Source: Pyrococcus kukulkanii
Lineage (GTDB): Archaea > Methanobacteriota_B > Thermococci > Thermococcales > Thermococcaceae
DNA: 64,000 nt
NCBI RefSeq assembly: GCF_001577775.1
Contig: NZ_CP010835.1
Coordinates: 806,001 to 870,000 of the forward strand
Direction: 5' to 3'
A program made the position numbers and the translations under genes. Positions within the stretch are counted from its first letter, which is position 1. Each line of letters opens with the position of its first letter. Under the pieces are notes generated by a model. It was not told where the DNA came from and did not search any database. It was given only the letters and a program-made list of their open reading frames with translations. Shown here piece by piece: positions 12,312 through 57,520 of the stretch.

Positions 12312-12515
12312 ATGATAAAGGTTAAAGTCATTGGTAGGGGAATCGAAAAGGAGGTCAAGTGGAGGAAAGGAATGAGAGTGAGAGACGTTCTTAGGGAAGT
12401 AGGGTTTAATACGGAGAGTGCCATTGCAAAAGTAAACGGCAAAGTTGCCCTTGAGGATAAGGAGGTCAATGATGGTGATTTTGTTGAGGTAATCCCAGTG
12501 GTTTCCGGTGGTTGA
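12312..12515 (+). CDS. ubiquitin-like MoaD/ThiS-family protein (SAMP-like)
   Basis: 67 aa beta-grasp protein beginning [17 protein letters not shown] and ending PVVSGG. The terminal Gly-Gly is what an E1-like enzyme adenylates, for sulfur transfer (thiamine, molybdopterin, thiolated tRNA) or protein conjugation (sampylation). The start is ATG 12312; the upstream extension is not needed. It stands alone, without a thiamine or molybdopterin gene beside it, which leans towards a SAMP2/ThiS-like role. A possible deconjugase, the JAMM protein at 25775, is in this window. Function between these options is open. Confidence 0.85.
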
Positions 12516-12573
12516 TTATTCTTACTTTTAAACCACCAAAATGTTTATTAACAAACTTCTCAACGCTTAAGTG

Positions 12574-12605
12574 GGGGCAAGACACTCTTCTGAGTGCCTT
12601 GCTCC
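12574..12605 (+). promoter_or_regulatory. long hairpin in the leader of the TRAM gene
   Basis: GGGGCAAG-A-CACTC, loop TTCT, GAGTG-C-CTTGCTCC: thirteen pairs (one G-T) with a single A-C mismatch around a 4-base loop, lying 24 bases before the TRAM start. There is no T run after it, so it is not an obvious intrinsic terminator, and it follows the SAMP-like gene by about 60 bases. A likely promoter (TTTTAAACC at about 12528) lies upstream, so the hairpin would be in the 5' leader of the mRNA. Confidence 0.6.
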
Positions 12606-12628
12606 AATGTTGGATGGATGTGTTGGAA

Positions 12629-12868
12629 ATGTATGGTGGAAAAGGTGCAAAGAGAAGATTTAATGGAGAGCCCAGGAGATTTGAAGCCCCAGTTAAGGTT
12701 GGGGAAAGGTACAAAGTTAAGATTGAAGGGATGGGCAAAGGTGGAGATGGGATAGCCAGAATTAAGGGCTTTGTTATCTTCGTCCCCCACACGCACGTCG
12801 GGGATGAAGTGGAGATCGTGATAAACTCAGTCAAGAAGAGGTTTGCGTTTGCGGAGGTTATTGAGTGA
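12629..12868 (+). CDS. TRAM-domain RNA-binding protein
   Basis: 79 aa from ATG 12629 ([15 protein letters not shown]); an in-frame ATG at 12614 would add five residues. A basic, glycine-rich N-terminus precedes a complete TRAM OB-fold: [20 protein letters not shown], then [20 protein letters not shown] and RFAFAEVIE. Stand-alone TRAM proteins in archaea behave as small RNA chaperones, comparable to bacterial cold-shock proteins; that is known for methanogen members. The strongly structured leader suggests post-transcriptional control, possibly by the protein itself (inference). Confidence 0.88.
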
Positions 12869-57436: not shown

Positions 57437-57520
57437 CGCCGGGGCGGGGATTTGAACCCCGGTGGGCGAACGCCCACGGGATCTCGAGTCCCGCGCCTTC
57501 CCTGGCTAGGCTACCCCGGC
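57437..57520 (-). tRNA. tRNA-Ser (CGA)
   Basis: On the minus strand GCCGGGGTAGCC...CCCCGGC forms the acceptor stem, with discriminator G and genomically encoded CCA at 57434-57436. The anticodon loop CTCGAGA gives anticodon CGA (Ser UCG), the long variable arm GTGGGCG-TTCG-CCCAC is type II, and the T arm GGGGTTCAAATCCCC is intact. The 215 bases between this tRNA and the gene at 57217 contain nothing recognisable. Confidence 0.95.

Follow-up and report, generated by a model that had tools for sequence, protein, structure and literature searches.

The question raised by this locus is what a stable hairpin does immediately in front of the gene for a TRAM RNA chaperone in Pyrococcus kukulkanii. 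In the window, by which we mean the whole 64,000-nucleotide stretch of DNA that was analysed, the 13-bp stable hairpin of a preliminary description is confirmed on the plus strand at 12574-12605, with 13 base pairs, one A.C mismatch and a TTCT loop. The letters there read GGGGCAAG-A-CACTC-TTCT-GAGTG-C-CTTGCTCC, and the mismatch A12582.C12597 separates an eight-pair proximal helix, one member of which is the G.U pair 12576.12603, from a five-pair helix that closes the TTCT loop at 12588-12591. The earlier impression that the pairing exceeds chance is borne out, with region 12560-12620 folding at -23.2 kcal/mol (z -3.02, matched by 1 of 200 shuffles) and the first 40 nt of the predicted transcript giving a z of -5.09, a value equalled by 0 of 200 dinucleotide shuffles. 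Indeed, 12574-12605 is the strongest of all 32-nt stretches on both strands of the 64-kb window, at -20.2 on the plus strand and -20.8 for the reverse complement, and the runner-up is a tRNA arm at 57454-57485 (-19.8). The antisense strand folds slightly better here because of the A.C mismatch. This mismatch is common to the window and its three closest relatives (L003-L005), and in the other four aligned Pyrococcus leaders the same position is occupied by G.U or A-U. Read directly, the window's hairpin contains neither tandem G.A pairs nor a kink-turn, and it is therefore not a k-turn of the L7Ae type.

The downstream gene does encode a standalone TRAM protein (Pfam TRAM, 1.4e-14, with the 84-amino-acid form), and the hairpin lies in its leader, as had been proposed. 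We place the coding region at 12629-12868 on the plus strand (79 amino acids); a longer alternative begins at ATG 12614, but ATG 12629 is the most likely start because two orthologues, L036 (G021) and L057 (G065), carry an in-frame TGA directly before the conserved ATG. Given these TGA codons, longer starts in other members of the family may be wrong. Between hairpin and start codon is a plus-strand spacer at 12606-12628, in which GGATGTG at 12616-12622 probably serves as a Shine-Dalgarno-like sequence, and in 70 of the 74 distinct leaders of the orthologous genes the hairpin ends 23-27 nt before the conserved ATG. The TRAM coding region itself contains a 10-pair hairpin at 12778-12809 that is among the window's strongest, and this coding hairpin beats a synonymous null in only 40 of 60 stretches from relatives.

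The promoter-like box noticed upstream of the hairpin also holds. The TATA box (TTTATTAA) is at 12544-12551 on the plus strand, and on the same strand CAAAA at 12537-12541 occupies the place of the BRE, which is -36 to -32, counted from the predicted +1 at 12573, in the P. furiosus consensus RRAAA (PMC6640164). The P. furiosus consensus, as given in the same source, puts the TATA box at -30 to -23 and a pyrimidine-purine initiator at -1/+1 (PMC6640164). From the TATA spacing together with the initiator T12572/G12573 we infer the exact start, on the plus strand at 12573, 29 nt from the first T of the TATA box. The chosen initiator falls 28 or 29 nt from the TATA box in 87 of the 90 relatives' leaders, and a motif-blind choice of the TATA box leaves the predicted start unchanged in 89 of 90. 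Pairing in the predicted transcript begins at +1 in 71 of 74 distinct leaders and at +2 in the remaining three, which include the window; the stem could be extended upstream of the predicted start by one base pair in 30 of 74 and by two or more in 15 of 74, and for this reason the predicted start is precise only to 1-2 nt. Promoter spacing thus puts the predicted start upstream of the hairpin, and not downstream of 12605, and the transcript would begin at the hairpin foot, within a nucleotide or two. That the hairpin starts at the predicted +1 or +2 in every one of the 74 distinct leaders is what would be expected if the paired 5' end blocked triphosphate removal and 5'-to-3' decay, giving a long-lived mRNA with no regulator, and bacterial mRNAs are known to be stabilised by 5'-terminal base pairing (review PMC3997798). 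We consider such end protection a possible explanation, to be entertained tentatively, and return to it below with the evidence on the conserved sequence.

A protein search returned TRAM matches in 90 of 94 Thermococcaceae genomes. Among the strong matches, 131 in number, 130 entered a protein tree and the 131st (L157) was examined outside it, and six weak matches within larger proteins (E above 1e-4) were dropped. The tree of 130 separates clade A, with 90 rows from 89 genomes including the window gene, from clade B, with 40 rows (support 100/99). All 90 clade-A leaders (74 distinct) are predicted to fold into a hairpin at this place; L157 is, by its match and its leader, a 91st clade-A gene, again with the hairpin, and every Thermococcaceae genome in which a clade-A TRAM gene was found has the leader. 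The sequence CTCTTCT, allowing up to one mismatch at a fixed place, occurs in 89 of 90 clade-A leaders versus 7 of 40 in the clade-B paralogues, and L033, a divergent second copy in G001, is without the CTCTTCT match but still has the hairpin. Over the 74 distinct clade-A leaders the mean folding z is -2.73, with 49 below -2 and 25 above it, and for 17 of them none of 200 shuffles folds as well; the 40 clade-B leaders, for which the choice of start was cruder, have a mean z of -0.53 with 7 below -2. Comparison thus shows the predicted hairpin to be conserved among the orthologues, and shows that it is not conserved among the 40 TRAM paralogues of clade B. The clade-B genes (e.g. L022, L055 and L093) are present in many genomes and in none of the nine Pyrococcus, and they often carry GGTGGTG at the start, with no conserved hairpin. 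Outside Thermococcaceae, a standalone TRAM was found at 1e-8 in none of 21 other genomes of the phylum, and by sequence match alone exact CTCTTCT was absent within 160 nt in 11 leaders of other archaea (L139-L149).

In the window, a small SAMP/ThiS-like gene is located upstream of the hairpin and a Dph2-like diphthamide gene follows TRAM. Within the fetched flanks, mostly about 500 nt, this pair of neighbours accompanies only 9 Pyrococcus rows of the 90, whereas the hairpin is present in all of them, and comparison therefore ties the leader element to this one gene across changed neighbourhoods. Because the hairpin stays with TRAM where the neighbouring genes differ, the suggestion in the preliminary description that it might be a small stable RNA finds no support. 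We give almost no credence to a free-standing small RNA or to a piece of the 3' end of the upstream SAMP-like gene, although Thermococcales do produce stable RNAs from mRNA leaders (PMC3124441). The sRk leader-derived RNAs of P. abyssi are similar to the TRAM leader in being structured, conserved and leader-derived in the Thermococcales, but their loci are elsewhere, and none of the validated P. abyssi ncRNAs in Table 1 of that report coincides with the TRAM locus of G004, in both cases if G004 is P. abyssi (PMC3124441). TRAM is not mentioned anywhere in the main text of the same report.

If the element acts as RNA, its pairing should survive changes of letters, and the search for compensatory changes in relatives that had been proposed as a check was carried out on alignments of 8 Pyrococcus leaders, 22 distinct short-type leaders and 41 distinct long-type (Thermococcus) leaders. 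The short-type alignment omits L102, which has a different shape, and L021 and L099, which repeat included hairpins; it takes in L010, shifted from the Pyrococcus alignment, and keeps L091 and L110 though they are probably misaligned. Pairing is kept through compensatory and G.U changes, with some measures weak, and to the extent that sequence comparison can tell, neither refuting condition named in the preliminary description, loss of pairing in relatives or a start downstream of 12605, came true. In the case of the short type, the eight-pair helix is 97.7% paired compared with 93.9% in shuffles, 12 cells are changed on both sides and the covariation is 0.472, each of these values being reached by 0 of 500 shuffles, and slid partners score 0.076-0.160; two measures are weak for this type, since 121 of 500 shuffles attain its number of doubly changed pairs and 317 of 500 attain its number of further pair types. 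The eight Pyrococcus sequences, which differ little among themselves, show 96.3% pairing (19 of 500 shuffles), and their covariation is reached by 3 of 500, with weak values for the four doubly changed pairs (66 of 500) and for further pair types (425 of 500). In the long type, the proximal eight-pair helix is 95.1% paired, which is weakly above shuffles (37 of 500), and the covariation of 0.144 is reached by 51 of 500 shuffles and is exceeded by a slide of +2, which scores 0.154. An arm swap gives a modest effect, with the leader's own arm beating the mean swap in 54 of 74 (mean -15.7 versus -12.2 kcal/mol).

A near-palindrome at the predicted start could also be a DNA operator in which a dimeric transcription factor binds the inverted repeat, and symmetry with no strand preference for wobble would then be expected. 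Instead the two strands are asymmetric. Over the three alignments G.U cells outnumber A.C cells by 172 to 10 (7, 47 and 118 G.U versus 4, 1 and 5 A.C in the Pyrococcus, short and long alignments, respectively), and the sense strand folds more strongly than the antisense in 64 of 74. The arm letters change while pairing is kept, and CTCTTCT is conserved on one arm only and shifts relative to the promoter in Pyrococcus, making an operator a very unlikely reading. Since pairing survives the letter changes, G.U outnumbers A.C and the sense strand folds better, we conclude that selection acts on RNA, and a structure of this kind heading the TRAM mRNA, with its letters changed but its pairing kept, suggests a control element built into the message. 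The safest statement, drawn from comparison of sequences, is that the TRAM mRNA probably carries a cis-acting RNA leader at its 5' end.

The part of the leader that does not change is the heptamer CUCUUCU, which in the window lies at 12585-12591 on the plus strand, running from the 5' arm of the apical stem into the loop, and which is exact in 82 of 90 orthologous leaders and within one mismatch in 89 of 90. The DNA motif CTCTTCT is found 32-34 nt after the TATA box in 82 of 90 rows and 39-41 nt after it in eight Pyrococcus with longer stems. In those eight the hairpin foot remains by the predicted start while the motif is shifted, and CTCTTCT therefore belongs to the hairpin and not to the promoter. 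In Pyrococcus, groups g4, g5 and g6 and some others the hairpin has 7-14 pairs, and in most cases a stem containing CUC closes a small loop. By comparison, the preferred fold of 41 distinct leaders (40 in g3) is a hairpin of 28-34 nt whose 5' strand (GGGACUCUUCUCG and similar) pairs with a later strand, and the shorter 20-nt hairpin is still possible in most of them. Most of these long-type leaders (L024 to L112) can thus form two mutually exclusive hairpins, both from the predicted +1. The heptamer is largely paired in the lowest-energy fold of the long type, and it is accordingly not always an open loop. No letter of CUCUUCU varies among the 41 long-type leaders, although the strand with which it pairs drifts, so that something beyond pairing seems to hold it in place. 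Here the evidence bears again on protection of the 5' end, for which pairing would be needed but not a fixed sequence, and which would leave this conservation of the heptamer, exact or invariant against a drifting partner, unexplained. Similarly, bacterial 5'-terminal stabilising stem-loops resemble the TRAM leader in placing a hairpin at or near the first transcribed nucleotide, and they act by pairing and position (PMC3997798), whereas the TRAM leader also fixes one stretch of sequence throughout the family.

We therefore turn to what might read the heptamer. Our favoured interpretation, held with moderate confidence, is of a cis-acting structured 5'-terminal leader of one TRAM orthologue, conserved through Thermococcaceae, whose role is most likely autogenous control via CUCUUCU. 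The stem would display the fixed pyrimidine element on the 5' side of the loop and would usually end 23-27 nt ahead of the start codon; a protein, either the TRAM chaperone or some other RNA-binding protein that reads pyrimidines, may engage the CUCUUCU hairpin in the nascent or finished transcript; and the level of free chaperone could then set the amount of its own message that is retained and translated. Closure of the 5' end may in addition shield the transcript. We infer the binding partner, the direction of control and the step at which it would act, decay or translation. In ranking the explanations we favour autogenous control first, with end protection its main rival and thermosensing third.

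Autogenous control is favoured because of two precedents, one of them the TRAM0076 protein of Methanococcus, which binds its own transcript with autoregulation predicted, and which also melts 5'UTR hairpins of other genes (PMC6705878), and the other the tested case of L7Ae and its own leader. TRAM0076 of Methanococcus maripaludis is similar to the present protein in being a standalone archaeal TRAM protein, but in the accessible part of that report no conserved hairpin is described in its own leader (PMC6705878). In the case of archaeal L7Ae, an RNA-binding protein gene likewise carries a structured element in its own 5'UTR (PMC5539422, PMC6298567), and feedback on its own expression was shown (PMC5539422), whereas for the TRAM leader feedback is proposed only. 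L7Ae also reads a kink-turn, while the window hairpin is made of standard pairs and one A.C mismatch, the family keeps CUCUUCU and binding by TRAM is putative. Against TRAM as the reader of CUCUUCU is the poor sequence preference of the methanogen proteins, which fits poorly with a fixed seven-letter element; TRAM0076 and the Methanolobus TRAMs are described as binding RNA with no clear sequence preference (PMC6705878, PMC5572242). If TRAM is nevertheless the reader, the fixed CUCUUCU would challenge the view of TRAM proteins as lacking sequence preference. A bolder form of the proposal, which we offer as a tentative possibility, is a family-wide autogenous RNA switch in which TRAM recognises CUCUUCU within a hairpin that the very first nucleotides of its message form, and in which the level of chaperone or the temperature could choose during transcription between the two exclusive hairpins, of about 20 and 32 nt and both starting from the predicted +1, that are found in most Thermococcus-type leaders.

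The preliminary description had also thought a thermosensing leader plausible, that is, a hairpin poised to melt near growth temperature that forms on cooling and alters the translation or decay of TRAM. Predicted melting does differ by genus group, with medians of 96 C for g1 (Pyrococcus), 88 for g3, 84.5 for g4, 79.5 for g6 (one leader), 78.3 for g5 and 75 for g2, and the window hairpin is predicted to melt at 89 C, though the energies are extrapolated to 75-100 C and are rough, and structured RNAs of hotter organisms would be expected to be more stable anyway. In P. furiosus, TRAM (PF1062), possibly the clade-A gene, is reported to be down early in cold shock, with the protein up after 24 h (PMC10746257), which would favour a thermosensor. 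However, the likely ribosome site and the start are both outside the hairpin, and complementarity between motif and spacer shows no excess (mean longest match 4.81 compared with 4.97 shuffled). Two methanogen TRAM leaders were considered not to act as thermometers (PMC5572242, PMC6705878), that of Methanococcus not being predicted to change with temperature (PMC6705878). We consider thermosensing unlikely. A comparator is E. coli cspA, an RNA-chaperone gene with a structured leader (PMC5378194, PMC6705878), and TRAM has been described as the functional counterpart of CspA (PMC5572242). The cspA leader is a thermosensor of ~160 nt (PMC5378194), whereas the TRAM leader has a length of about 55-60 nt, of which the hairpin takes up about 19-34 nt, and the two proteins are unrelated in sequence and come from different domains of life.

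How CspA-like TRAM chaperones are controlled matters in its own right, as autoregulation has so far only been predicted, in Methanococcus. To our knowledge, few archaeal leaders have tested regulatory roles. They were few as of 2014 as well (PMC4247193). We rate the leader family as new and the type of job it would do as familiar. Thermococcus kodakarensis is genetically tractable, and since the leader is short, is present in every gene-bearing Thermococcaceae genome and has no second strong copy, the question of control is directly testable in such a host.

No description of this TRAM leader was found among the matches listed in the open-access literature (main texts, without supplements), and no Rfam family reached its gathering score at the window's hairpin or, likewise, in the loci from 11 relatives. 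At L010 in G011, Rfam places an sR47 C/D box RNA at 1147-1201 on the minus strand, and the TRAM gene is about 300 nt away. A DNA search with 12500-12640 in the window's own genome matched itself alone. Two covariance models, R1 for the short hairpins and R2 for the long ones, were run over the 94 genomes with stricter filters, at which weak matches are lost, and both models miss the window's own hairpin. At E <= 1e-4, 25 of 26 R1 matches are TRAM-A leaders, with the one other (L150) inside a 316-amino-acid open frame, and all 55 R2 matches coincide with TRAM-A leaders, including one on the antisense strand; in the 94 genomes R1 and R2 returned no second family of strong sites. Nine weaker places were also inspected, and when L150 is added to them, 7 of the 10 fall in long open frames (L150, L151, L154, L155, L158, L159 and L160), with L150 and L151, and likewise L154 and L155, alike in pairs; L152 gives an ambiguous picture. 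Further weak model matches include two in the window's own genome (E 0.018 and 0.030). Finally, L153 and L156 are located just before an ATG, each in one genome, and are possibly chance: the weak match L153 (G006:C1:1181013-1181038, minus strand) comes directly after the end of a tRNA gene, and the weak match L156 (G016:C1:1801099-1801124, minus strand) stands behind a TATA-like stretch and before a flavoprotein/CoaBC-like frame.
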